From: Sphaerisporangium album
GTDB taxonomy: Bacteria > Actinomycetota > Actinomycetes > Streptosporangiales > Streptosporangiaceae
Assembly: GCF_003323745.1 (NCBI RefSeq)
Contig: NZ_QOIL01000002.1
Coordinates: 465,753-529,752 of the forward strand
Direction of reading: 5' to 3'
DNA: 64,000 bases
Position numbers and translations under genes: made by a program. Positions 1-15,259 of the stretch are shown one piece after another. Position 1 is the first letter of the stretch; each line of letters starts with the position of its first letter. The notes beneath the pieces are model-generated. The model did not search any database, had not been told where the DNA came from, and worked only from the letters and a program-made list of their open reading frames with translations.

Positions 1-2444
1 GGGAGCGGCGCTACTACGAGCAGGCGGTCGCCGTCGACCTGGAGCCGGCGGACATCGCGCCTGGGTCCTGGCGGCACGCCAAGACGACGTTCGGCGTCGA
101 CTTCACCCGCAAGGCGGTCATCCGGCGGTTCAACCTGGGCACCACCCGTTACGACCGGCCCGCCACCGACCGGTTCGCCGGGGAGGACGTCCGGCTCAAC
201 CCGTTCCACGCCTGCCCGGCCTGCGGCGGCGCGACATGGGACGGGCCCCCGGCGATGATGGCGACCATCGGGCCGCAGGCGAGCTCGTTCGCCGACCCTT
301 CCCGAAAGCACCACCGGCCATGGTGCGCCTACCGGCGCGCGGCAGAGGACGTCGAGCACGTCAAGCTGATCCTCGCCCACGTACTACGCACCGAGGCGCT
401 GCGCATCCTGCTTCCCGTCGCGACCCTGCTGATCGAACAGCGGATGGCGTCGTTCGAGGCGGCGCTGATGGCCGGAGTGGCGGCCTGCTACGGCGGCGAC
501 CCCGACCACCTGGCGGTCGTCACCGCGACGATGCCCGACCAGGAGACCGGACGGCGCCGCCGGTTCCTCGTCCTGCACGACACGCTGCCTGGAGGCACCG
601 GCTACCTGCACCGGCTGTCCACGCCGGAGGAGTTCCGCAAGGTGCTCGCCGCGGCGCGGGACATCGTGGAGACCTGCGCCTGCGCCACCGACGGATCCAA
701 GGTCGCCTGCCACCGCTGCCTGCTGGCGCACGTGTCCGGGGACAAGTACGACAAGGTGAGCCGGGCCGAGGCTCTCATCATGCTTCGCGAGCTCCTCGAA
801 GAGTGGGACACCGCGACGGTAGCCAGCACCGACGCGATCTCCCTGTGGGACCAGGTGGAGAGCGAGCTGGAAGCCCGCTTCCTCGGCGGCCTGCAGGCCT
901 GGGCTCGCCGGAGCGACACGCCCGGTACGCTGGGCCGCGCGGGCACGGTCAACGGCCGACGTACCGCGGACCTGCGCATCGAGCAGGCCGACGGCTCGAT
1001 CGCGCACTGGCAGATGATCCTGCAGAACACCATCAGGGAGACCAGGCCCGACGTGCTGTTCCGGCGGCTGGACGCCGTCTCGGTCACGTCCGGGCCGGCG
1101 GAGGTCGCCGTCTACCTCGACGGATACAACTACCACGCGTCCCCGGCGAAGAACCGGCTGGCGGGCGACGCGGCCAAGCGCACCCGGCTCCGCGCGCACG
1201 GCACGCTGGTCTTCCAGCTGACCTGGGACGACCTGGACGAGTGGGAAGGGCGCGGACACAGTCCGTCCCCGTCCACGGAACCGTTACGGGCTCCCTACCT
1301 GGGCAACGCCCGTACGGCCGCGCGGCAGGTCTACCAGCAGTTCAGCCCTGACCGTGAGCCGGACGAACTGGTCCGCACCATGTGGACCAACCCGATCGAC
1401 ACGCTGCTCGCGTTCCTCGGCGAGCCGGACCCCGGCCGGTGGCTCCGCCGCGCCGAAGCCGCCGCCGCAGGGCTGCTGCTGGTCACACAGGCACAGAGCG
1501 TCTGTGGGCCGGACGGCGTACCGGAGCGGCTGATGGCTGCGCTCCGGGGCGAGCCCATGCCCCCGTCGACCGCCGGTGCGATCGCGGTACGGTGGTCCGC
1601 CGACACGAGCGGCTGCCCCGTCGCTCTGATCATCGACCAGCGATCCGGGTACGCGTGGACGGCCTTCGCCGTGGTCGACGACCGGCACGAGACGATCGTC
1701 GCCGACGAGGAGGCGCACCGCCGCCGGTGGGCGGCATGGCTGTACTGGGGCAACCTGCTGCAGTTCCTGGACATTGGCGCAGGGGAGGGCGGGCAGCTCA
1801 CCGTCACCGGCCTGGACACCTTCGACCCGACGTTGCTCGCGGCGGCGGGCGGAGCCGGGATCCTCTCCACGCTCAGCCTGGTGCCGCTGGACGAGGACCT
1901 GGTCGATGCTCCGGTTCCCGCCGGAAAGCCGCTCGACCCGGCCCATGCAAAGCCACTCGACGAGGACTCCGGAGTGTCCGTCACCGAGACGACGACCACT
2001 TCGGTCTCCTCACTGGACGAGACCGTGCCCGTGCGCGACCGGGCGGAGCCCGTATCGGACCGGACGCTGCCCGTACGGCGTCCCGTCGTCGAAGGGCAAA
2101 CCGGGCCGACGGCGTCGGGCAACGAGGTGGACCCCAGCTGGGAGCGGATCTACGACGTTCTCGACCCGGAGGAGGCGGGGCTCGCGGAGTTCGCCCGAGC
2201 CCTCGCCGAGCTGGGCGTTCCGGCGCCAGGTGAGGGAGGGGTCGGGTTCGAGCTCGGTGAGCAGGCCTGGCAGGCGGAGATGGCGTGGCCGTCGGCCAAG
2301 GTGGCGGTCGTTCTCGCTGGGGACGACGACGAGGCGCGCAACCGGAACGCGGCGTACACGGCGGCCGGTTGGGTCGTGCACGACGTACGCGTCTGGACGG
2401 CCGAGGAACTGGCCGAACGGATTCGAGGGGGGAACGTCACGTGA
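1..2444 (+). CDS. DUF1998-type helicase, C-terminal part (partial at window edge)
   Basis: The frame is open from base 3 to the stop at 2442-2444 (about 813 codons) with no obvious start, so the gene begins outside the window. The visible part carries the DUF1998 signature: a Cys pair (HACPACGG, near base 210), a further Cys (RPWCAYRR, near 320), the segment HDTLPGGTGYLHRL near 575-620, and a Cys cluster (ETCACATDGSKVACHRC) near 670-720. In this family DUF1998 follows a DEAD/DEAH helicase core, and such proteins are hallmarks of phage-defence systems such as DISARM (DrmB) and Druantia (DruE). The last 350 residues are less conserved and end in a small alpha/beta segment. The gene is coupled by overlapping micro-ORFs to a UvrD helicase and a kinase. 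Family is confident; the exact defence type cannot be decided without the N-terminus. Confidence 0.82.
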   Translation, partial: ERRYYEQAVAVDLEPADIAPGSWRHAKTTFGVDFTRKAVIRRFNLGTTRYDRPATDRFAGEDVRLNPFHACPACGGATWDGPPAMMATIGPQASSFADPSRKHHRPWCAYRRAAEDVEHVKLILAHVLRTEALRILLPVATLLIEQRMASFEAALMAGVAACYGGDPDHLAVVTATMPDQETGRRRRFLVLHDTLPGGTGYLHRLSTPEEFRKVLAAARDIVETCACATDGSKVACHRCLLAHVSGDKYDKVSRAEALIMLRELLEEWDTATVASTDAISLWDQVESELEARFLGGLQAWARRSDTPGTLGRAGTVNGRRTADLRIEQADGSIAHWQMILQNTIRETRPDVLFRRLDAVSVTSGPAEVAVYLDGYNYHASPAKNRLAGDAAKRTRLRAHGTLVFQLTWDDLDEWEGRGHSPSPSTEPLRAPYLGNARTAARQVYQQFSPDREPDELVRTMWTNPIDTLLAFLGEPDPGRWLRRAEAAAAGLLLVTQAQSVCGPDGVPERLMAALRGEPMPPSTAGAIAVRWSADTSGCPVALIIDQRSGYAWTAFAVVDDRHETIVADEEAHRRRWAAWLYWGNLLQFLDIGAGEGGQLTVTGLDTFDPTLLAAAGGAGILSTLSLVPLDEDLVDAPVPAGKPLDPAHAKPLDEDSGVSVTETTTTSVSSLDETVPVRDRAEPVSDRTLPVRRPVVEGQTGPTASGNEVDPSWERIYDVLDPEEAGLAEFARALAELGVPAPGEGGVGFELGEQAWQAEMAWPSAKVAVVLAGDDDEARNRNAAYTAAGWVVHDVRVWTAEELAERIRGGNVT

Positions 2445-2485
2445 GCGACCACGGTCCTGCGGAATCCAGGAGGAGCACCCGATGA
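2441..2485 (+). CDS. micro-ORF 1 (14 codons), possible coupling peptide
   Basis: GTG at 2441 overlaps the helicase stop (gTGA). The frame encodes MSDHGPAESRRSTR and stops at 2483-2485, overlapping the ATG of the next micro-ORF. Its first half resembles micro-ORF 2 (MSRHGLAESS), so the two probably arose by duplication. It may only carry ribosomes across the 96-nt gap to the UvrD gene. Expression is unproven. Confidence 0.3.
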   Translation: MSDHGPAESRRSTR

Positions 2486-2544
2486 GCCGCCACGGCCTTG
2501 CGGAATCGTCCAGAGCCATCGAGCGTGATCAGGGGGACAAGTGA
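2482..2544 (+). CDS. micro-ORF 2 (20 codons), possible coupling peptide
   Basis: ATG at 2482 is preceded by a strong AGGAGG (about 2468-2473). The frame encodes MSRHGLAESSRAIERDQGDK and stops at 2542-2544, overlapping the GTG start of the UvrD gene at 2541. Both ends use 4-nt start/stop overlaps, as if built for translational coupling. A peptide function cannot be excluded. Confidence 0.35.
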   Translation: MSRHGLAESSRAIERDQGDK

Positions 2545-4706
2545 GCATTCAGGGCGAGGCGACGCTGCGGCTGCTCGACAAGGCCGACAAGGAGATCATC
2601 AAGCTCTCGCGGGACGTCAAGGGTGCGATCTACGACTTCCAGCACAAGTTCCGCAAGAACCCGGCGAACCCCGGGCTGCACTTCAAGCAGCTCAAAGGAC
2701 ATCCGAGGCTGTACTCCGCGCGGGTCAACCAGGAGTACCGGGCGCTGCTACTGCACGCCGGCGAATCGGACTACATCCTGGTCGCGGTCAAGCACCGCAA
2801 GGACGTGTACGAGAACCTCGACCGGTTCGCGTACCAGATCAACCCGGTCAGCGGCGGCATCGAGTTCGTCGACCTCGTCACCATCGAAGAACGGGTGGGC
2901 GAACAGAAGCCGGCCGGGCCGGAGACGTTGTTCTCCGCCCACACGACCGAGCAACTTCTCGAACTCGGCGTGGCCGAGCCACTGCTCCCGCTCATCGCGA
3001 AGATCACGACTGAGGAGGAGCTGCTCGGCCTGGCCGAGTACGCTCCCCAGCTCACCGGCGAGGTGCTGCTCGCCCTGCACGACGGGAAGAGCGCCGAGGA
3101 GGTGCTCGACCAGGTCACCGCACCCGTCACCGCCCCCGATCCGGTCGACGCCGAGGACTACCAGGCGGCCCTCGCCAGGCCCGCGACGCTGGTCACCACC
3201 GAGGACACTGCCCTGCAGGAGATCCTCGAAGGAGACTTCGGGCGCTGGCGGGTGTTCCTGCACCCCGCACAGCGCAAGACGGTGGAACGCGCCTACAGCG
3301 GTCCCGCCCGGCTCAGCGGCGGACCCGGTACCGGCAAGACGATCGTCGCGCTGCACCGCGTGAGACACCTGGTGGACAAGCTCGGCCCTGGGCACGGCAA
3401 GGCGGTTCTGCTGACCACCTTCAACAAGAACCTGGCCGTCGATCTGCGGCGCAGGATGCTGGAACTCGCCGGACCCGAGGTCGTCGACCGGGTGGATATC
3501 GTGAACATAGACAGCCTCGCCGCGAAGATCGTGGCGGAGGCGGAGCCTGGCGGGCAACGCCGGTGGATCGACGACACGAAGGCGATCATGGAGTGGGAGG
3601 AGCTGCTCGGCGAAGCGGGAGAGACGCGGTGGGATCCCGACTTCCTGCACGCGGAGTGGTCCCATGTCATCCTCGGCCAGGCGATCAACTCCCGCGCCGA
3701 CTACTTCCGTGCGCGCCGCGCCGGACGAGGACGGACCATCACCCGGGAGGACCGGGCCGCCATCTGGCAGCTGGTCGAACGCTACGTGAAGCAACTCGAC
3801 AAGAAAGAGCTGTGGACCTACCGTCAGGTGGCGGAGCGCGCCGCCCGGCTGGAGATCGAACGCGCGCGGAAGATCGCATCGTACGAGGCGAACCAGATCG
3901 ACTCGGTGAAGCTCCAGCATGATTCCGGGATCTGGTACCGGCCGCGCTACCGGCACGTCGTGGTCGATGAAGCTCAGGACCTCAGCGCGGCCCACTGGAA
4001 GATGCTGCGCGCCATGGTGCCCGAAGGCCCTAACGACATCTTCCTGGCCGGGGACACCCACCAGCGGCTGTACGGCAACTACGTGTCGCTGGGAACCCTC
4101 GGGATCAACATCCGGGGACGGTCGTCGAGGCTCACGCTGAGCTATCGCACCACGCACGAGATCCTGGGCGCTGCTCTCGGCGTGCTCGGGCAAGAGGAGT
4201 GGGACGACCTCGACGACGGCCGCGACGACCTGTCCGGCTACCGTTCGGTGCTGCACGGCATGCGCCCCACGCTTCGGCCGGCCCCCACCTGGGAGGCCGA
4301 GTTGGACGCGATCGTGGACCAGGTCCGCGAGTGGGACGATGTGGCGCCCGCGGCGATCGCGATCTGCGTCCCCGAGCGTGCCATGGTCTCCGAGGTGGAG
4401 AACCGGCTCGGCAAGGCGGGAATCTTCGCCACGTCCATCGGGCCCGAGGGGCCGAAGTTGTACGACGCGGTCCACGTCGGGACGATGCACCGGTTCAAGG
4501 GGCTCGAATACCAGCGGATGATCATCGCGGGTGTCGCCGAAGGGCTGGTGCCCTCACATCGGGTCATGCAGTACGAGCGAGGTGACGCGCTACGCTTCCG
4601 GCGCGAGCTTCAGCAGGCCCGCTCCCTGCTGTTCGTCGCGTGCACGCGGGCGCGGGACTCGCTGGTGATCTCCTGGCATGGCCGACGCAGCAGGTTCCTG
4701 CCGTGA
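2541..4706 (+). CDS. RelE-like domain fused to UvrD/Rep-type superfamily 1 helicase
   Basis: 721 aa; GTG start with AGGGGG upstream. Residues about 1-110 resemble a RelE/ParE-type fold (LRLLDKADKEIIKLSRDV, then YSARVNQEYRALLLHAGE). The rest is a superfamily 1 helicase: Walker A GGPGTGKTIVALHR near residue 255, Walker B VVVDEAQDLSAAHW near 475, the LSYRTT motif near 533, GTMHRFKGLEY near 650 and VACTRARDSL near 700. All ATPase and helicase motifs look intact. Fusions of this kind occur in bacterial islands. Whether the RelE-like part is a nuclease or a structural remnant cannot be told from sequence. The gene lies between a DUF1998 helicase and a Ser/Thr kinase and overlaps the kinase by 4 nt, so the three are very likely one operon with a joint role in DNA handling or phage defence. 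Confidence 0.88.
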   Translation: MSIQGEATLRLLDKADKEIIKLSRDVKGAIYDFQHKFRKNPANPGLHFKQLKGHPRLYSARVNQEYRALLLHAGESDYILVAVKHRKDVYENLDRFAYQINPVSGGIEFVDLVTIEERVGEQKPAGPETLFSAHTTEQLLELGVAEPLLPLIAKITTEEELLGLAEYAPQLTGEVLLALHDGKSAEEVLDQVTAPVTAPDPVDAEDYQAALARPATLVTTEDTALQEILEGDFGRWRVFLHPAQRKTVERAYSGPARLSGGPGTGKTIVALHRVRHLVDKLGPGHGKAVLLTTFNKNLAVDLRRRMLELAGPEVVDRVDIVNIDSLAAKIVAEAEPGGQRRWIDDTKAIMEWEELLGEAGETRWDPDFLHAEWSHVILGQAINSRADYFRARRAGRGRTITREDRAAIWQLVERYVKQLDKKELWTYRQVAERAARLEIERARKIASYEANQIDSVKLQHDSGIWYRPRYRHVVVDEAQDLSAAHWKMLRAMVPEGPNDIFLAGDTHQRLYGNYVSLGTLGINIRGRSSRLTLSYRTTHEILGAALGVLGQEEWDDLDDGRDDLSGYRSVLHGMRPTLRPAPTWEAELDAIVDQVREWDDVAPAAIAICVPERAMVSEVENRLGKAGIFATSIGPEGPKLYDAVHVGTMHRFKGLEYQRMIIAGVAEGLVPSHRVMQYERGDALRFRRELQQARSLLFVACTRARDSLVISWHGRRSRFLP

Positions 4707-5608
4707 AGACGATCGCCGAGCGCTACCAACTGTCCCAGCCTATCGCTCGTGGGGGCATGGGCCAGGTCTGGCTGGGATCTGACCTGCGTCTCAACCGGCC
4801 CGTCGCGGTCAAGCTGATCCACGAGGACGACCTGGCCGACAGGAAGGAGACGGTCCGGCGCTTCTATCGTGAGGCGCGGATCACCGCTCGCCTGCGGCAC
4901 CCCGGCACGCCCGTCGTGTACGACTTCGGGAGCGACGAGGGCCGGCTGTTCCTGGCCATGGAGTACCTCGACGGCCACACCGTCGCACATCTCATCGACG
5001 AGCACTCGCCACTGCCCGTTCCCTGGGTGGCGATCATCGGTGCCCAGGTCTGTGCCGTCCTGGCGGCCGCGCATGCCGCCGACCTGATCCACCGGGACGT
5101 CAAGCCGGGCAACCTGGTGATGCTTCCCGACGCGACTGTCAAGGTGATCGACTTCGGGGTGGCGACGGCGCTGAGCGGAGAGGAGTTCTCCAGGATCACC
5201 CAGTCGGGCGCGGTACCCGGCACAGCCCGCTACATGGCCCCGGAGTTGCTGGACGGTGCCTCGGCGAGCCGTTCCAGCGACCTGTACACCGTGGGATGCC
5301 TGCTGTATGAGCTGCTGACCGGCACGCGCCCCTTCGCCGCACCCGACCTGATGGCCGAGATCTACCGCAGCCGCAGCGAAACACCGCCACCTCTGGGCCG
5401 CTCCGACATCCCCCGGGAACTCCGCGAGCTGACCTTCCACCTGCTCGCCAAGTCCCCCGAAGAACGTCCGCACAGCGCGGCGTCGGTGTTCCGCACCCTG
5501 CTTCCCCTGATCGAACCCCCGCCGCCGATCCCAGGCCTGATCGACAAAGACCTGTCCACCCACCCCACCCACATGTACGCCGCAACCCTTCGGCAGATCG
5601 GCCCCTGA
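4703..5608 (+). CDS. soluble serine/threonine protein kinase
   Basis: 301 aa from GTG 4703, which overlaps the UvrD stop (gTGA). The kinase domain is complete: glycine loop ARGGMGQVW, ATP-binding lysine AVKLI, catalytic loop IHRDVKPGN, DFG in VIDFGVA and MAPELL. Unlike PknB-type housekeeping kinases it has no transmembrane segment and no PASTA or other sensor domain; it ends about 30 residues after the fold. Tight coupling to two helicases suggests a regulatory kinase of that system, perhaps signalling or switching the helicases during infection. Kinase activity is well supported by motifs; the substrate and the defence role are inference. Confidence 0.9.
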   Translation: MKTIAERYQLSQPIARGGMGQVWLGSDLRLNRPVAVKLIHEDDLADRKETVRRFYREARITARLRHPGTPVVYDFGSDEGRLFLAMEYLDGHTVAHLIDEHSPLPVPWVAIIGAQVCAVLAAAHAADLIHRDVKPGNLVMLPDATVKVIDFGVATALSGEEFSRITQSGAVPGTARYMAPELLDGASASRSSDLYTVGCLLYELLTGTRPFAAPDLMAEIYRSRSETPPPLGRSDIPRELRELTFHLLAKSPEERPHSAASVFRTLLPLIEPPPPIPGLIDKDLSTHPTHMYAATLRQIGP

Positions 5609-5740: not shown

Positions 5741-7613
5741 GTGCTTTCTTATGATTGGTGGCAGGGTCGGTTGGCCGAGGAGTTCTTCGGCCCTGCCCAG
5801 GCTGGCCGCCCACTCCTCTTCTTTGTTGACGACGACGAGGCCATACGTCTGCACGGCGATGCACGTGCCGCAGATGCCATAAATGATCTATGTACTGCCG
5901 TCGCGCAAGAGGCTATTGATTGGCAGCGCGGCGCGTACGAGCGCGTCTACCGTGACGTCCTTATTTGGGAGAGGTCTTCATCGGAGGATCCGCCACCATG
6001 CCTGCCCTTGCTCGCGGTATGCGTGCTGGCGGCGACGCGCATGCGGGGCAATGGCGGGCGGGGGGCCTTCGCCTACTACGCCCGGCTCGCGGAGATCCTT
6101 TCTCCGCCGAACTGGTATCGCGGGAGCGATCATGAGAAATATCTCCAGAGGGATTATGACACCGTAGGGATTCTCTGGAAGTGTCTCGATACGTGGCTGA
6201 AGGAGCGCGAGGGGACGCGAGGGTTCAGTACGTTGCACGCGTCCAAGGGTAGAGAGAGCTCATTGGGTACGCCCAGTCGCAGGCCCTCGTTTGCGCCGCG
6301 GATCACGATCGTCTGGCTCGGTTCTTCGCGGAATTCCAGGGACGAGACGCCGCCACACTCTTCCGAGGCCTGCGGATGTGGAAGGACCGACCGCGACTCT
6401 CTCGCCGCCTCCGGGAGGCCTTCGACAAGAACAGCGATGACAATGTCCTCGGCCCATTGCTCATCTCTCTCGCCGAATCAGACGGTCGCGTTCCTCCGGT
6501 GCCGAGCGGATTACGACGGCTGCGGCTGAAAGTTACCGCGACTGATGATTACCGGGACGGCTGGAAGTTGGGGTGGCGCGCGGAACGCGTCGCCGGTGTC
6601 GATGGCGACACGCTGGCGCACCCCGGTGGCCATCTCGTCGTGACGGCGCGTGGTGAAGGAGCCCTTTACGTCATCTCGGGCGACGTTCCTGACCTCAAGC
6701 AGGGGCTCGAGAAGGGGTTGGCCGCACGCGGCGAACGCCTGGGCATCAGCCTTCAGCCCCGGCGGCACCCACTGATCCTCCAAGAGGATCCGCTAGGGGG
6801 ATGGACCGAGGTCGACAACGCATCGCCTAATAGGGCATCCCTCGTCATCTTTGATGAGCAAGGTGAGTTGGAAGCTCGGAGCCTCGTCCAGCGAGCAGGC
6901 TTTGAGTGGGAGGAATGGGACGATAGCTCGGTGGACGGCTGGCGCGTGGCCACCGACCTCGAGTTCGATGACGGTCCCGGGGACCAACGGACCAGGCTAG
7001 TGGGTGGCCTCCACCTTCGGGTGACGGGCGAGCGGCGGCACTATCTCGTCGGGGGTGAGCCGGATCTGGTGCCGCCGCCCGGAGCGGACGTCGTCCATCT
7101 CGACGGCGTGCCGATCTCGACAGGGGGAAGGCCAACGGAGCTTCGGGGCCGAGGTCTTGCTCATGGTGAGCACAGAATCGATGCCGGAGCCCGACAGCTG
7201 ACGTTCTTCCTGCATGCCCCACGTCGGCCCGTCCCTTTTGAGGCACCAGGTCCTTCGCGCGCCCGCACACAGCCTTCACCTTTTGAGGGATCCACGATAA
7301 TCGACGCCGAGGGCCGCTACACCGATCTGATCCCAACGGCACCGCCCCTCTGGTGGCGTGAGCGTCGAACGGGGCTGGGCGGTGAGCCCGAGACGATGGA
7401 ATCCCCGATTCCGCGGTATGGCTCGTGATCGATCACCCGGACGGCACCATCGAGGTGAAGTTGATGCGCCCCGAGGAGCCGCGGATCTCTCACCTCACCC
7501 CGGATATGCGAAAGTTCTGGGCGCTCATGTTCGCGATCGAGCATCCGCCGCCGGAAAGACTCTGGAAGAAATACCTGGAAGCAGTCTTGAGGTGCGGCAA
7601 TGGCCGTTTCTGA
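5741..7613 (+). pseudogene. large island protein of unknown function, two frameshifts
   Basis: Coding sequence runs from GTG 5741 to TGA 7611-7613 but changes frame twice. Near 6251-6258 an AG repeat (agagagag) appears to have gained 2 nt: the frame from 5741 makes sense up to HASKGRE, and the sensible continuation (GYAQSQALVCAADHDRLARF) lies in the frame that holds ATG 6376. Near 7405 a run of four Cs appears to have lost one base: restoring it joins ETMES to DSAVWLVIDHPDGTIEVK and extends the protein to 7613. The repaired product would be about 620 aa, acidic and Trp-rich, with no motif I recognise. It is the first gene of a coupled operon ending in a DEAD/DEAH helicase. Sequencing error is the alternative explanation, but five nearby lesions make decay more likely. 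Confidence 0.6.
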
Positions 7614-8504
7614 GCACCCGCAGGGATTCGATCCGGATCTGGTCGTCTCCTGGCTTGCCGAGATCGAGTCGGGACGGATCGATCGCCTCCGCGCTGACAT
7701 CGTCTGGGCGGCGAGGGCCAACGCCGTGGATGCCATGCAATGGATCGAGTTGATGGAAGGTCTCGGGATACTCCAGCTCGACTGGACTGCCCGGACCTGG
7801 AGGGCGCAGCCGCTGGCGCTGACGGCACTGCCAACGAGACGGGTGTGACCTTGCTCGCCGGGGCTCGCCCCGCCCCCCAGGACTGGAATCATCTTCCGGG
7901 CGTGGTCGTATGCCGGAGCCCTCAAGGGACACAGATTCGCCCGCCGTCGACAGTCTGGTTCCAGACGAACATCGAGCAGGCGGGGGACGTGCTCGGAGCC
8001 GAGTTGACGCCATGCGCAGCGGAGCGGATCGCGGATGGGCTAACCCGTCTGGAGCTGGGCGAACCGGGACCGGGACCCGCGCGGGACAGTGAGTTGGCCG
8101 TCTTCGACACGCTGTCGGGGCGGTTCGGACGACCGAGAACGGTTCCATCGCCGCGCCCAGGTTTGTATGAGTACCTGCTTTACGGGCGGATTCCCCGGTA
8201 TGCCATCTTCCGTAATCAACAGTGGTACAGCGTTGATCGCTCTGCGGGGATTCAGATCTCCCTGCCGGCGGCGGCGTTCCCTTTCATATGGCAGCCTGAA
8301 GGGGACGGGAGCGGGTTGCGGAGTCTGGGGAGACTCATTGTCGATCATCGAGCTCCACTACCCCGTCGCCACCGGGAGGCCGCAGTGCTGTGCACCGGTC
8401 TGCCACCCCTGCGGCTGACGGCAGGAATGGCCTACGACGGGGTGCCGCGATGGATCGCCGAGAAGATCGCGAAGTCGTCGCGCCGGAAATTGGAGATTCG
8501 ATGA
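7600..8504 (+). pseudogene. second unrecognised island gene, probable frameshift near 7835
   Basis: ATG 7600 (GAGGTG upstream) overlaps the end of the previous gene by 14 nt. The first frame stops at 7848 after 82 codons. The next frame then carries about 220 codons to 8504. Adding one A to the AA at about 7833 joins ALP to NETGVTLLAGARP and gives one protein of about 300 aa. An alternative is two genes coupled by the gTGA overlap at 7845-7848. The product has no motif I recognise; its middle part (GLYEYLLYGRIPRYAIFRNQ) looks like a normal soluble domain. Its stop overlaps the helicase start (ATGA at 8501-8504), so it belongs to the same operon. Confidence 0.5.
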
Positions 8505-8965
8505 GTGGGCTCGATGTTACTCGTACGTTCGAGGCACTGCGCGATGCCTACCTGCGGTATTACGACACGGCCTTCCGGATTCGGGACCCTCGGTTGCGTG
8601 CGGAGCGGCGCGCGTTGCTGAACGTTCCAGGTGGGATGTACGCGGAGCCGTACGTAGAGGTTCGGCCGGAGTATGCGACCACCGGCCGCTCGTTGAGTGA
8701 ATCGGTCACGCGAGCAAGCGGTGCCGAGGAGCTTGCGGACTTCGCCGAGGTGGGTCTGCTCGGGGTAGGCCCAGAACTGTACACCCATCAGGAGCGGGCG
8801 CTCGTCTCGGCCCTCATACCTGGGCGGAACGTCGTTGTGACGGCGGGGACCGGCTCGGGTAAGACTGAGGCATTCCTTTTGCCGATCATCTCGGACCTGC
8901 TCAAGGAGTCACGGTCATGGGAGGGCACGCCGGGGAAGGCGGAGCGCTGGTGGCAACGCCGTAGG
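8501..8965 (+). pseudogene. DEAD/DEAH helicase N-terminus, cut off by an IS element
   Basis: ATG 8501 overlaps the preceding stop (ATGA). About 155 residues remain, ending around ERWWQRR. They include the Q-motif-like THQERALVSAL and Walker A TAGTGSGKTEAFLLPI near residue 120. This looks like the front end of a large DEAD/DEAH helicase of the DUF1998-bearing kind. After about 8960 the sequence becomes IS-like, and no downstream part of the helicase is found on the other side of the element. The remainder was therefore deleted or moved. It could be a second copy of the helicase whose C-terminus opens this window, or its displaced front end. Confidence 0.75.
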
Positions 8966-10075
8966 GCGTGTATTTGGCTGTGATCAAGGGATGGTCCGGG
9001 TGAGGTCTTTGATCCAGATCATCGCGGCGCGGAGGTGGAGGCCCGCGAGGTAGCTTGCAGGGGTCTTGTCGTAGCGGGTGGCGATGCCTCGCCAGGCCTT
9101 CAGCTTGTTGATCAGGCGCTCGACGGTGTTCCGCTCCTTGTACAGGTCGGCGTCGTGGCTGACGGGCCGGCCGCCCTTGCTGCCCTTCTTCTTCCGGTTG
9201 GCGGCCTGGTCCTTCCTTTCTGGGATGACTGCCTTGATACGCCGTCTCCGTAGGTAGGCGCGGTTGCCGCGGGATGAGTAGGCCTTGTCGCCGGCGACCG
9301 CGCCGGGCCGGGTCCGGGGACGGCCGACGGGCACCCGGATGCGTACTTTCTTCAGCACCGGGATGAACTGCGGGCTGTTGGCGGCCTGTCCTGCGGTCAA
9401 GACGAACGCCAGCGGGCGGCACTTGCGGTCGGCGGCGAGGTGGATCTTGCTGGTCTGCCCGCCCCTGGAGCGTCCGAGCAGGGCAGCTTTCAGCCGGAGC
9501 TTACGCCGGTACCGGACGCGTCGCCGTTCTTCTGCTTCGGGGTCGTTTGCGGCGTTCTGCTCCTGTTGTCCTTCCGGGTCGCCCCCTTTTGCTGGCCTTG
9601 TCGTCCTCGGCGGCCTTCTCCAGCGCGGCGACAAGGTCGCTGCCCAGGTGCATCCCGGCGGCGTCGTGATGAGCCCGGGCGGTGGTGGAGTCCACGCTGA
9701 CCAGGGACAAGTCCACCTCCCCACGCTTGACGGCTTCCGCGATAACCCCCTCCAGCAAGGCTTCGAAAACACCCGCGTCCCTCCACTGCCGGAAGCGGTT
9801 GTGGACGGTCGGCCAGGCGCTGAACTCCTCGGGCATCTCCCGCCACTGCCCGCCCGTCCTGAACCGCCAGATCACGCCCCTCGAACTGCTGCCGTAGCCG
9901 CTCAGGGTACGGGCCGAACCTGCCGATCGGCAGGTAAGGCTCAATGAACTCCCACTCTTCGTCTGTCAGTTGGGCCCGCGTCACACACGACGACCTACCG
10001 GATCCCGCTCTGCCGCAGGGGCGAATCCCAAACATTGATCGCGTAGTTTCTTGCCTTGTGGCCTTACAGGAAAGA
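8966..10075 (-). mobile_element. IS5-family (IS427-like) insertion sequence, ends unresolved
   Basis: The element carries a minus-strand IS5-type transposase in several frames. Both flanks contain the motif GATCAA in inverted orientation (about 8979-8984 and 10034-10039), but the outer bases of the two ends do not match as terminal inverted repeats and I find no target duplication. Boundaries are approximate. The mismatch of the ends, with loss of the helicase remainder, points to an IS-mediated deletion rather than a simple insertion. Confidence 0.6.
8984..9984 (-). pseudogene. IS5-family transposase, frame-disrupted
   Basis: Read from GTG 9984 leftwards. The N-terminus (LTDEEWEFIEPYLPIGRFG) is in one frame. 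At about 9883 an extra G (gagggg) moves the normal continuation (VIWRFRTGGQWREMPEEF) to a second frame. After about 9590 the C-terminal half, including the DDE-domain segments GGQTSKIHLAAD and DADLYKERNTVERLINKLK, is in a third frame. One shift is expected in IS427-type elements, which make the transposase by programmed frameshifting. The extra-G shift is not expected, so the enzyme is probably dead. It could also be a sequencing error. Confidence 0.7.
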
Positions 10076-11361: not shown

Positions 11362-12072
11362 TCAGTCCCGCGCGGTGTCGCGGTAGCGGCGGGCGGCGGC
11401 CAGGGCGGCGCGGATGGTGTCGGCGTCGGCGGGGGAGCCGGGGTCGTCGCCTGCGATGCCGAGGCCCTGCGGGTTCCTGGCGTAGGGCACGGCATAGGCG
11501 GGGGTGTCGCGCTGGAAGCGCCAGCCCTCCGCCAGCGGTCCTGCGTCCACGGCGTCGAAGCCGAGGATGTCCAGCAGCGCGGTCGCGGCGGCCTTGGCCC
11601 CAGGGTCGTCGCCGGCGATCGGCAGGGCTGTGCGGTCCGGGGAACCCGCAGGGCGGGCCAGGGCGGCCAGGTGCTTGAAGTAGATGTTGTTGAAGACCTT
11701 GACGACCTGGGCGTCCGGCAGATGCCGCTGGACCAGTTCGCTGGTGGTGGTCTCTTCGGTGTCCAGTTCCGGGATCTGTCCGTCGCGCTGGGGATAGTAG
11801 TTGCCGGTGTCCAGGACGACCTTGCCGGCCAGCGGCTCCACCGGTACCTGGCGGTATGCGTGCAATGGGACGGTCACCACCACCCAGTCCCCGGCGGCCG
11901 CGGCCTCGGCCGGGGTGGCGGCTCTGGCGTGCGGGCCGAGTTCCTCGGCGAGCGTGGTCAAGGTGTGCGGGCCGCGGGAGTTGCTCAGCACGACGTCCAG
12001 GCCGGCGGCCACCGCCAGCCGGGCGAGCGTGCTGCCGATGTTCCCGCTGCCGATCAATCCGAGAGTTGCCAT
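11362..12072 (-). CDS. NADPH-dependent F420 reductase-like oxidoreductase
   Basis: 236 aa from ATG 12072 (AGGGATG upstream). The frame is open further upstream, but the Rossmann motif GLIGSGNIGSTLARLA begins only at residue 4, which fixes this start. Other family segments are the DVVLSNSRG strand, VVVTVPLHAYRQVP, VLDTGNYYPQRDG and VVKVFNNIYFKHL. These match the F420-NADP oxidoreductase fold, whose members reduce NADP with F420H2 or act on other substrates through NADPH. True F420 use is uncertain, because many relatives in Actinobacteria are of unknown specificity. It lies downstream of an ADP-ribosylglycohydrolase gene on the same strand with a 214-nt gap. Confidence 0.8.
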   Translation of the reverse strand: MATLGLIGSGNIGSTLARLAVAAGLDVVLSNSRGPHTLTTLAEELGPHARAATPAEAAAAGDWVVVTVPLHAYRQVPVEPLAGKVVLDTGNYYPQRDGQIPELDTEETTTSELVQRHLPDAQVVKVFNNIYFKHLAALARPAGSPDRTALPIAGDDPGAKAAATALLDILGFDAVDAGPLAEGWRFQRDTPAYAVPYARNPQGLGIAGDDPGSPADADTIRAALAAARRYRDTARD

Positions 12073-12286
12073 GACGGCGACAACGACATCCCTGGTCTCT
12101 GTTGTTCCTCTCTGGTCGGGGCTTCTCAGCGCATGCTCCCGCGGCACCCGCCGGCTCCGGGCTCGGCGACGCCCGCCCGCTGTGTCCGATCGCCGCGCCT
12201 CGGCGCCACCCACGATGGGCGACACCGTACGAAACGCCCTCTCGGTGTCCGGGTGAACTGGTGATGAGTATCACCGCTTGACCGGC

Positions 12287-13378
12287 TCAGGAGCCGGGAT
12301 ATTTGCCCCGGGGGAGGTCGCCGCCGGAGAACCAGGTGGTGAAGTCGTCGGCGAGTTCGGTGATGGTGGTCCGCCCTTCCAGGGGTGACAGCCAGTGCTG
12401 GGGCAGGGCCGTCTCGCCGTGTCCGGCTCCGAGGATGTTGCCGCAGATGGCGCCGGTCGAGTCGCTGTCGCCGGAGTGGTTGACGGCCAGCAGCAACGCA
12501 CGCTCGACATCGTGCTCGTGGACCAGGGCGCAGTAGACGGCGATCGCGAGTGCCTCCTCGGCGACCCATGCGCCGCCGAGGGTTTCCACTGCCTCGGGGG
12601 TGGGGGGTGTCGTACCGGCCAGGGCGACTGCGGCCTGGATCGCGGCGGTGGTCTCTTCGTGTCCGGGGTGTGCGGAGAGCAGGGCGAGGGCCTCCTGTAC
12701 GGCGTTCGCGAGCGCATGTCCTTGAGCGAGGAAGGAGACGATCGCCGCGAAGGCTCCTGCGGAGAGGTAGCCGGTCGGGTGGCCGTGGGTGATCTGGGCA
12801 CAGGCCGCCGCCAGGCGGAACGCCTCCCGCGGTTCGGGGGACGCCAGGCCGAACGGGGCCGAGCGCATGACCGTGCCGCACCCCTTGGAACCGGAATTGA
12901 CCGCGCCGGCCGCGCCACCCGTCGCCGTCGGGCCGAGCTGGTGACGCAGGCCGGACAGGCAGGTGTTGCCCGGCGCACGGCGGTCGTAGAGCCAGGTCTG
13001 CTCGCGTAGCCGGCCACTGCGGACGAGCCCGTCATCCGGTGGCGGGGACTTGTGCTGCTGCGTGTCGAGCCAGCGAAGGTACGCGTTGCGCACGACGTCC
13101 ACCTCGGCGCAGAAGCCTCGTTCTCGCGCACGGACACCGGCGCGGATCAGTCCCTCGACGGTGAACAGGGTCATCTGGGTGTCGTCGGTGATCAGGCCGA
13201 TCTTCCCGCGCCAGTCGGGGGTGAGGTCGGTCAGCCCCGTACGACCATGGCGGCGGCGGATGTCGGCGATGGAGTCGAACTCGATGGGCGCCCCGAGCGC
13301 GTCCCCGATCGCCCCTCCGAGCAGGCAGCCACGCACTCTGCTGCCAAAGCTCACATCGGTGTGCTCGGCGTCGCGCAT
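12287..13378 (-). CDS. ADP-ribosylglycohydrolase family protein
   Basis: 363 aa from ATG 13378, chosen for AAGGAG 9 nt upstream; the longer frame has no such site. Metal-binding motifs of the DraG/ARH family are present: GGAIGDALGAPIEF near residue 21, TDDTQMTLFT near 63 and NHSGDSDSTGAICGNILG near 300, which supply the paired Asp and Thr ligands for two Mg ions. The enzyme is predicted to remove ADP-ribose from proteins or small molecules in the cytoplasm. ADP-ribosyl hydrolases often accompany toxins or defence systems, but no ADP-ribosyltransferase is visible here. Confidence 0.88.
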   Translation of the reverse strand: MRDAEHTDVSFGSRVRGCLLGGAIGDALGAPIEFDSIADIRRRHGRTGLTDLTPDWRGKIGLITDDTQMTLFTVEGLIRAGVRARERGFCAEVDVVRNAYLRWLDTQQHKSPPPDDGLVRSGRLREQTWLYDRRAPGNTCLSGLRHQLGPTATGGAAGAVNSGSKGCGTVMRSAPFGLASPEPREAFRLAAACAQITHGHPTGYLSAGAFAAIVSFLAQGHALANAVQEALALLSAHPGHEETTAAIQAAVALAGTTPPTPEAVETLGGAWVAEEALAIAVYCALVHEHDVERALLLAVNHSGDSDSTGAICGNILGAGHGETALPQHWLSPLEGRTTITELADDFTTWFSGGDLPRGKYPGS

Positions 13379-13525
13379 GATGGTGATCTCCTTCGCACGA
13401 ATGACCCTGACCGTACCGGCAGTAGCCGCCACGTCGCGGTCGATCTCTGCTGATTCACGGGCTTCTGCGAAGTCCCCTTCTGTCTACAGGGGCGCGTCGA
13501 AGCCGAAATCTCTGGCCAGATCGTT

Positions 13526-13947
13526 CTAAGGAAGGCGGCGCAGCTCGGCGGCGGCTTCGGGGTGGATGAGCGTGTCGCTGTGGTCCTGAAACCAGATCAC
13601 GACCAGGCACGAGGACTCGGCGTTGGGAATCCCGGCCTCGAATAGCCCGATGCACTTCACGGGCGGCAGGAACTCCACAAGGCCATACGGGTGGGGGCGG
13701 GGGCCGCGCCGATCGAAGCGTTGCTGATCGTCCGGGATGGTTCTAGCCGGTGGGACGAGATGGACGGGTACTGCGTCCACTTCCGGCGCGTCCGCTCCAT
13801 CGTCCGACCGATGAACATCTCGTCGTTCATCCGCTGCCTGGGCACGCCTTCGATGAGGCCGCCGTAGGTGAGAGTCATCTCCACCCAGCGCAGATGCACA
13901 TCGAATCCAGCGTCCAGCCGGAGCGGTGTAACGGCGAGACCGACCAT
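13526..13947 (-). pseudogene. conserved hypothetical protein with a frameshift
   Basis: ATG 13947 has GGAGG 7 nt upstream. The frame is sensible to RRKWTQYP (about 13770), then the sensible sequence (VHLVPPARTIPDDQQRF) continues in the next frame to the stop at 13526. Adding one G at about 13763 restores a protein of about 140 aa with a TYGGLIEG segment near the start and SCLVVIWFQD near the end, a layout I have seen in Streptomyces hypothetical proteins. No function is known. The lesion is a single-base deletion, like several others in this part of the window. Confidence 0.55.
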
Positions 13948-14248
13948 GATTTCCTCCACTGAGCTGAGCCAGGTCTACCGCGACATCGCCGGTCCGGCAT
14001 CGGAATGCCGCAGAAACACCTATCGGATGGTGGCCGCATGCAGTAGATCATATGTGAACCGAGTGCACAACATACACTCGTCCTCGCGCTTGGATTCGTC
14101 GAGGTTGGCCGGTGCCGCCGGTCGGCGGCTCCGGGCTCGCTCTGTACGCGACCTGCGTGCCTACGCCGACGGGTTGCACGACCCTATGCGCCATCTGGAC
14201 GCTCTGGAGTGACGGCCCGCCACGAGTCGGTTCGTCCCGTCCGGGCCT
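13948..14248. other. 301-nt intergenic region, no confident gene
   Basis: Lower-GC stretches (about 14020-14090) look like promoter DNA for the minus-strand hypothetical gene. A short plus-strand frame ending at 14212 (RSVRDLRAYADGLHDPMRHL) reads like a protein tail but has no start or context, so it is at most a gene remnant. Confidence 0.3.
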
Positions 14249-15259
14249 TCAGGGGAGTTTGCCGAGGGACTTGGTGAGGATGGCGGCGGTGTCGGCGATG
14301 AGCTTGTTGTCGTAAGCCGTGTCTCGGGCGTGGTGGTTGGTGTAGATGGTCATGATGATGGGGGGAGTCGTGGCGGTGGGGTGGATTACGGCGATGTCGT
14401 TGGCGGAGCCGTAGGAGGATGAGGAGCCCGTTTTGTCGCCGATGATCCAGGTCTTGGGGAGGGCGGCGCGGATGCGGGCGTCGCCGGTGGTGTTGGCGCG
14501 GAGCCAGGCGTTGAGCTGGGCGCGGTCCCGGGGGTCCAGGGCGTTGTCGACCGTGACCTTGCGCAGGTCGTGGGCTATGGCGGCGGGGGTGGTGGTGTCG
14601 CGCTTCTCCTTGAGGCTCCAGTTGTTGAGTTCGGTCTCCCAGCGGTCGAGGTGGGTGATCGGGTCCTTCAGCGAGCGGAAGTACTTCGTCAGGCCCGCCG
14701 GTCCGCCGATCTGCCTGAGCACCATGTTGGCCGCGGTGTTGTCGCTGTAGGTGATGGCGGCCTCGCAGAGCTTGGCGACGGTCATGCCGTCATCCACGTG
14801 CTTCTCGGTGACCGGGGAGTTCTCCTTCAGGTCGCCGCTCTTCCAGTGGATCACCCGGTTCATCAGCCCTGGGGTGGAGGTGCGGGCCTTGTCCAGGACG
14901 GCGGCGCAGGCCAGTGCCTTGAAGGTGGAGAGCAGGGGGAAGCGTTCGCCGGAGCGATAGCCGATCGTCCTGCCGGTGGCCGTGTCGACGGCGTACGCGC
15001 CGATGCGACCCTTGGACGACTTCTCCAGGTCGCGCAGCAGCCGGTGGGCGACGGCTTCGCGGGGCGACGTGAGCCGGAGGTCTTCGAGGCCGCCCTGCTT
15101 GACGCCTGTCGCGGTCAGGGCCACTCCGGTCCGGGGGATCGCCCGGCTGTCGGCCACGGCGGTGTCCACACCACAGGCGGTTCCACCCGCGAGGAGGGAG
15201 ATCGTCAGCCCGGTCGCCTTCAGCGCCGCAGGAAGCCGGTGAGTGGGCAAGTGCCGCAT
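14249..15259 (-). CDS. bla: class A beta-lactamase, exported
   Basis: 336 aa from ATG 15259 (GAAGGA 9 nt upstream). All class A active-site motifs are present: STFK (Ser111/Lys114), YSDN (Ser172-Asn174), ETELN (Glu208, the Glu166-type base) and DKTG (Lys276-Gly278). The enzyme hydrolyses beta-lactam rings by an acyl-serine mechanism. A signal sequence (GLTISLLAGGTACG) precedes the domain. Cys29 could be lipidated, although Gly at -3 makes the lipobox poor. It is longer than usual because of about 35 extra residues after the signal. A perfect palindrome lies 62 nt upstream of the start, so the gene is probably regulated. No blaI or blaR neighbour is present. Confidence 0.93.
   Translation of the reverse strand: MRHLPTHRLPAALKATGLTISLLAGGTACGVDTAVADSRAIPRTGVALTATGVKQGGLEDLRLTSPREAVAHRLLRDLEKSSKGRIGAYAVDTATGRTIGYRSGERFPLLSTFKALACAAVLDKARTSTPGLMNRVIHWKSGDLKENSPVTEKHVDDGMTVAKLCEAAITYSDNTAANMVLRQIGGPAGLTKYFRSLKDPITHLDRWETELNNWSLKEKRDTTTPAAIAHDLRKVTVDNALDPRDRAQLNAWLRANTTGDARIRAALPKTWIIGDKTGSSSSYGSANDIAVIHPTATTPPIIMTIYTNHHARDTAYDNKLIADTAAILTKSLGKLP

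Follow-up and report, generated by a model that had tools for sequence, protein, structure and literature searches.

ARMADA, described in 2025 by Bell et al., is in its type II form a four-gene anti-phage system consisting of a BrxHII/RapA helicase (ArmA), a PglX-like methyltransferase (ArmB), a YprA-like helicase (ArmC), and a GajB-like helicase with an N-terminal RelE domain (ArmD) (PMC12458937). The main text of that paper reports that all four genes are required in E. coli NCTC 12900, where protection occurs without cell death, and that E. coli ATCC 8739 bears an active ARMADA II. Using a window of 64,000 nucleotides (nt) from the Sphaerisporangium album genome (9.3 Mb; bases 465753-529752 of its contig) and the DNA 5′ of it, we find that the window opens on the end of an ARMADA type II operon of an actinobacterial lineage, in which a Ser/Thr kinase gene (STK1) stands directly before armA. 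The core is already known; the kinase before armA appears to be new. A count of the word "kinase" in the main text of Bell et al. gives 0 (PMC12458937); the supplements, outside the scope of this count, may list one. Among the papers listed by literature searches, none plainly describes an ARMADA–kinase link. In the parts of two further papers that were covered, PMC12839542 contains neither "ARMADA" nor "Druantia", and PMC13192584 mentions ARMADA twice, without a kinase there.

The core operon and related systems

A preliminary description of the window had proposed that its first 5,608 bases hold three intact genes of a defence operon outside the standard DISARM and Druantia sets. This finding begins at base 1 because the window edge cuts the operon. 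With 20 kb of 5′ DNA added (stretch L004, where window position equals L004 position minus 20000), the three genes become the 3′ part of an operon ordered STK1–armA–armB–armC–armD–STK2. Its features, including two small open reading frames (micro-ORFs) and lengths in amino acids (aa), are as follows.

STK1, L004:5394-6647, plus strand: Ser/Thr kinase, 417 aa if the earliest possible start is used, matching PF00069 with E 1.8e-38
armA, L004:6671-9466, plus strand: SNF2/RapA-like, 931 aa
armB, L004:9472-12144 and 11819-14716, plus strand: type IIG/PglX-like methyltransferase in two frames
DUF3800-like gene, L004:15039-15602 (window -4961 to -4398), minus strand: between armB and armC, match below the Pfam cut-off
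armC, L004:15725 (window -4275) to window 2444, plus strand: 2239 aa, YprA-like helicase with DUF1998/MZB and a C-terminal region
relay micro-ORF 1, window 2441..2485, plus strand: 14 codons, 4-nt overlap with the armC stop
relay micro-ORF 2, window 2482..2544, plus strand: 20 codons, 4-nt overlaps with micro-ORF 1 and the armD start
armD, window 2541..4706, plus strand: 721 aa, RelE-like domain fused to a UvrD/GajB-like helicase, open and complete
STK2, window 4703..5608, plus strand: about 301 aa, second Ser/Thr kinase, PF00069 E 7.7e-43, clade-restricted

Intactness within the window holds for armD and for the kinase frame, which runs to 5608; armC is cut, and its part in the window (1..2444) is the last 813 of 2239 codons, DUF1998/MZB domain included, the start lying 4.3 kb upstream. 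The full armC gene is an uninterrupted open frame with PF09369 at residues 1577-1666 (E 2.3e-11). The helicase core, matched at residues 78-251 and 987-1058, falls 5′ of base 1, so that of the helicase and kinase motifs said to be present in the window, those of the kinase (PF00069) and ArmD (PF00580) are there and the ArmC helicase core is not. The RelE-UvrD fusion that had been proposed is borne out: a model of residues 1-251, the ArmD N-terminus, has a predicted local distance difference test score of 85.5 and finds the RelE, YafQ, and YoeB toxins as its best Foldseek matches, and ArmD matches UvrD PF00580 (E 3.5e-22), PF13361, and GajB models.

The upstream genes identify the operon as ARMADA type II (PMC12458937), and not as the less described system that had been suggested; the RelE-UvrD protein is ArmD. 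The arm genes are collinear with those of E. coli ATCC 8739, with the same four genes in the same order on one strand, homologous along their length and with the RelE-UvrD gene last. Identity to E. coli ATCC 8739 is 33% for ArmA, 33% and 32% for the two ArmB pieces, 30% for ArmC, and 33% for ArmD over the part of E. coli ArmD compared; across E. coli, Pseudanabaena, and Haematobacter the Arm identities are 29-40% (E. coli ArmD partial). ArmC finds E. coli ArmC as a full-length BLASTP match of 667 bits, and its closest relatives, among the named records in the matches listed, are from Streptosporangiaceae. A REase_MTES_1575 match occurs in 3/26 ArmC relatives and DUF559 in 1/26, the window ArmC having neither, and a solved-structure search with the ArmC C-terminal profile gave no useful match. 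The actinobacterial lineage differs from E. coli ATCC 8739 in having a kinase before armA and, in part of the lineage, a second kinase after armD, E. coli having neither; in this genome the DUF3800-like gene, also missing from the E. coli locus, interrupts the armB–armC stretch on the opposite strand. On this homology, the operon is predicted to protect against phage.

It is very improbable that the operon is instead a variant of DISARM, Druantia, or BREX, even though several of its proteins score with models of those systems: the best NCBIfam match of ArmA is DrmD (308 bits, cut-off 610), ArmC scores as DruE (PADLOC, 308 bits), and ArmB scores as type IIG or DrmMI. The NCBIfam scores are far under the curated cut-offs, however, and ArmC aligns with E. 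coli ArmC at full length, compared with 124 bits over the helicase motifs only for E. coli DruE (one DruE, pairwise BLASTP). DISARM has a DrmA helicase with DUF1998 in a separate protein, DrmB, and usually a PLD nuclease, DrmC, and here a single 2239-aa protein combines helicase and DUF1998. Among the matches listed, the ten scanned proteins include no DrmC match and no match to PglZ, the Pgl partner of a PglW-type kinase, and no DruH, which accompanies DruE in Druantia type III, or other dru partner was found for the operon genes. Membership in the three systems was thus rejected on gene content and scores. The upstream genes are STK1, armA, and armB and indicate no DISARM or Druantia subtype, in agreement with the earlier view that this is a defence operon with a non-standard gene set to which a kinase belongs.

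What the operon shares with these systems is limited to parts. DISARM class 1 also combines a SNF2-like helicase with a methyltransferase, and a YprA-like helicase is found in both DISARM and Druantia, but here helicase and DUF1998 are in one protein and the RelE-UvrD protein and kinases are additional. Pgl/BREX type 2 of Streptomyces coelicolor pairs a Ser/Thr kinase gene with a PglX-like methyltransferase; however, PglW is a multidomain protein of 1400-1600 residues, according to the part of PMC12839542 covered, compared with the 417-aa STK1, the two kinases score 48 and 56 bits with the PglW model (cut-off 990), and the helicases and RelE-UvrD protein are no Pgl parts. In MADS (MAD6 kinase) and TerY-P triads, kinases likewise lie beside DNA-modifying or DNA-processing defence genes, but STK1 and STK2 reach only 102 and 145 bits against a MAD6 cut-off of 460, and the operon has no conserved vWA-PP2C pair.

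The kinase gene before armA

An ArmC alignment search of 84,980 species genomes gave at least 574 relatives, of which the best 80 were taken; since these are the best-scoring of a longer list, they are biased to near relatives. Genes in the 80 loci were mapped with profiles built from those same loci, and for the 51 loci without a readable armA we searched for ArmA in the genomes concerned. A same-strand kinase lies directly before armA in 74 of the 80 related genomes, 28 read in the ArmC locus itself and 46 through the genome ArmA search, where the ArmA–ArmC link is assumed (in L043 the ArmA is on another contig). The STK1 of L075, truncated at the locus start, gives a weak match of 34 bits. 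The other six are unscorable: in L021 the upstream sequence spans 205 nt and includes a 59-aa kinase-like end, L053, L065, and L097 meet contig ends, and no ArmA was found for L070 and L076. The L070 genome (Actinosynnema pretiosum) has no ArmA match at E <= 1e-100; GmrSD-N, DndB-like, and HhH-GPD-like genes occupy the armA/kinase position there (L070:974-5033).

Across 133 partly redundant loci showing the ArmA start, 126 have the kinase; three of the seven without it lack room (L021, L130, L132) and four have room (L124, L125, L189, L190). Relative to the estimated ArmA start, the STK1 stop in the 126 loci ranges from 40 nt inside the gene to 320 nt ahead of it. When the order was sampled, ArmA was found at E <= 1e-100 in 50/297 genomes at 53 places, and the kinase was present at 53/53, window included (five places were read from loci with the same coordinates listed under other handles; the kinase is split in two frames in L126 and cut by the locus end in L151). 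The class sample, less biased than the 80-locus set, gave matches at E <= 1e-60 in 42/394 genomes, and its 44 places comprise 25 with the kinase (3 read in the earlier locus set), 17 without, and 2 unreadable (L220, L251). In L247, one of the 17, kinase-like matches lie about 1 kb off on the opposite strand. Kinase genes are otherwise rare, with 51 matches >60 bits, STK1 and STK2 included, across 1.90 Mb of loci. The kinase-led form is also borne by a Streptomyces plasmid, NZ_CP109251.1, and therefore can sit on a mobile element.

Kinase-free operons are found outside this lineage. Profile scans of the stretches examined detected no kinase in the operons of E. coli ATCC 8739, Tsukamurella, and the actinobacterial genomes G284 and G278, or in those on Pseudanabaena, Microvirga, Haematobacter, and Aulosira plasmids; the Microvirga armA sits close to the start of a circular record, whose last 4 kb are likewise without a kinase match. 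Two genomes, G300 and G313, have both a kinase-led copy and a divergent kinase-free copy. We placed these states on FastTree trees, which have long outgroup branches and leave 3 of 111 rows unscored in one tree and 4 of 146 in the ArmA tree. On the ArmA tree (142 scored rows, 116 with kinase and 26 without; E. coli, cyanobacteria, and alphaproteobacteria included in the tree), the kinase needs one change, with support 98. Over 93 shared loci, STK1 distances follow those of ArmA with a correlation of 0.915, compared with 0.135 for the best of 999 permutations. The kinase active site is conserved in STK1: among 114 distinct sequences, the catalytic Asp is present in 109/109, the DFG Asp in 109/109, and the ATP-binding Lys in 107/107 readable cases, the remainder being cut by locus ends or split, and the catalytic-loop Lys is replaced by Thr in 1/109 readable STK1. 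A hydropathy scan, which is no dedicated transmembrane predictor, exceeds 1.9 in 5/114 STK1 and 4/16 STK2. The pattern needs one origin, which suggests that the lineage gained the kinase before armA once and kept it in every readable copy.

Since the kinase has seemingly never been lost in the lineage, the pattern suggests a defence switched by phosphorylation. The preliminary description had proposed such a switch for the kinase in the window; strong comparative support comes from the upstream STK1, and the window kinase, STK2, is the less conserved of the two. The best explanation of the locus as a whole, which we consider reasonably probable, is an ARMADA II operon whose working is licensed by STK1, with STK2 as a later option. 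The kinase would sense or relay the infection state and phosphorylate one or more Arm proteins, its neighbour ArmA being the first guess, and the methyltransferase, translocases, and nuclease would act on invading DNA only once licensed. The closest counterpart of this scheme is Pgl of S. coelicolor, in which, according to the text covered, resistance depends on the kinase activity of PglW, thought by its authors to activate PglX (PMC4365076). We infer the substrates, the direction of the switch, and the trigger. The wider claim, that a large actinobacterial ARMADA II clade is licensed by phosphorylation, the kinase sensing infection and switching on the assembly and a second kinase, added in parts of the clade, giving a two-input or cascade switch, is evenly balanced in our judgement.

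Several observations weigh against phosphorylation licensing. Because ARMADA II works without a kinase in E. coli, the kinase would add control and not basic chemistry. A Thr-rich ArmC linker was rejected as a phosphosite since it is not conserved, and Ser/Thr are not over-represented at the lineage-specific invariant positions (ArmA 1/6, ArmC 2/12). No phosphatase is found within the conserved operon in the 80 loci, and the kinase tree unites the STK1 sequences in a single group with a support of only 59. The Vsr-type nuclease domain expected at the C-terminus of an ARMADA II ArmC found no confirmation in the window protein, Foldseek giving no significant match. Finally, armB is split by a frameshift in the S. 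album genome, and the operon copy here may therefore be inactive. Frame 1 aligns with four relatives to its own residue 804 (830 in one) and frame 2 covers the remainder; both pieces belong to the PglX-like methyltransferase family, and armB is a single open frame in 29/32 related loci scored. The break may instead be a sequencing error.

Two other roles for the kinase would fit parts of these data. It could act as a module of its own in defence or stress, linked to the operon but with separate targets and only the transcript in common, as kinases alone can defend (both STK1 and STK2 score with the stand-alone PD-T4-6 kinases of PADLOC) and the four-gene core functions without one in E. coli, as stated in the main text of PMC12458937. 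We regard this as unlikely since repeated gain and loss, as seen in STK2, would be expected of a free module, whereas STK1 is never lost in readable copies, changes once on the tree, follows ArmA in its distances, and keeps a fixed site directly before armA. The kinase could also be a brake, an antitoxin-like control silencing ArmB, ArmC, or the RelE part of ArmD until infection. An addiction-like role would suit its retention in every copy, ArmD has a RelE-like domain, and the Pgl methyltransferase PglX is toxic without PglZ, according to the text covered (PMC4365076); however, E. coli and other lineages hold the same core without a kinase and the core is therefore not toxic there, leaving a brake quite improbable.

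Gene junctions and the second kinase

The 3′ genes of the operon are joined by an exact chain of 4-nt overlaps, as the preliminary description had it: the ArmC stop at 2444, the micro-ORFs at 2441-2485 and 2482-2544, and the ArmD GTG at 2541. A GTG at 4703, where STK2 probably starts, in turn overlaps the ArmD stop at 4706. We scored 79 armC-armD junctions, the window and the Streptomyces plasmid included, and found a direct 4-nt in-frame overlap in 63, a bridging micro-ORF relay in 8 (the window and 7 other loci), and neither in 8. The overlap chain exceeds chance. A relay has either a single micro-ORF or two, with lengths of 3 to 36 codons. Among the peptides compared (junctions in L018-L097), sequences vary between genera, and it therefore seems that the ribosome hand-over is conserved and not the peptide.

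The neighbourhood of three genes is kept elsewhere as far as armC-armD, but a kinase follows armD in just 16 of the 75 loci with >900 nt downstream, window included. STK2 needs six changes on the ArmC tree (81 scored rows), and with its presence in 16/75 loci this rules it out as the key kinase. Nevertheless, no other gene family recurs as often behind armD in the 80 loci, and the two window-operon kinases are 34% identical over 250 columns. STK2 is a later, optional, and patchier second addition. The DUF3800-like gene between armB and armC is also found in L021, L023, and L096 among the 80 loci.

Neighbouring genes and what the kinase may mean

A broken Druantia-like set lies 3′ of STK2 (5741-8983) as a separate neighbour of the operon.

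DruF-like matches, 5741-6529 and 6376-7428: two frames
DruL-like gene, 7740-8504
DruE-like helicase, 8390-8983: first ~155 residues, ending at a DDE transposase gene (8984-9772)

ARMADA II and Druantia are adjacent here and likewise in E. coli ATCC 8739, whose ARMADA II locus adjoins Druantia III and Zorya II. At the other end, next to STK1, a TerY-P-like trio of genes lies on the minus strand (L004:1029-4886, window -18971 to -15114): they encode a PP2C phosphatase, a vWA protein, and a membrane/coiled-coil protein that matches ZorA weakly. A phmmer search with these three proteins labelled one gene in the 80 loci, most of which stop short upstream of STK1; the gene, in L018, is related to that of the coiled-coil protein and is situated downstream of the operon. 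We rejected a TerY-P triad as the setting of the kinase because the trio, on the opposite strand, has this one relative only in the 80 loci. On a Tsukamurella plasmid (L154), genes for UvrD, a helicase, and a separate DUF1998 protein, DISARM-like by annotation, directly precede a kinase-free ARMADA II armA, and armA of L210 is preceded by a DrmB-like gene. The S. album genome has a second ArmD match (C45:453472-455394), 36% identical over residues 52-721, in a 1498-aa open frame.

The text of Bell et al. covered does not name the trigger of ARMADA (PMC12458937), and a kinase tied to one clade provides a handle on it. Since the same core occurs in nature with and without the kinase, gating is testable by comparison. 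If the proposed licensing is true, the actinobacterial operon would join Pgl (PglW) and MADS (MAD6) as another instance in which a kinase accompanies a defence methyltransferase, which would suggest that DNA-modifying immunity is repeatedly controlled by phosphorylation.

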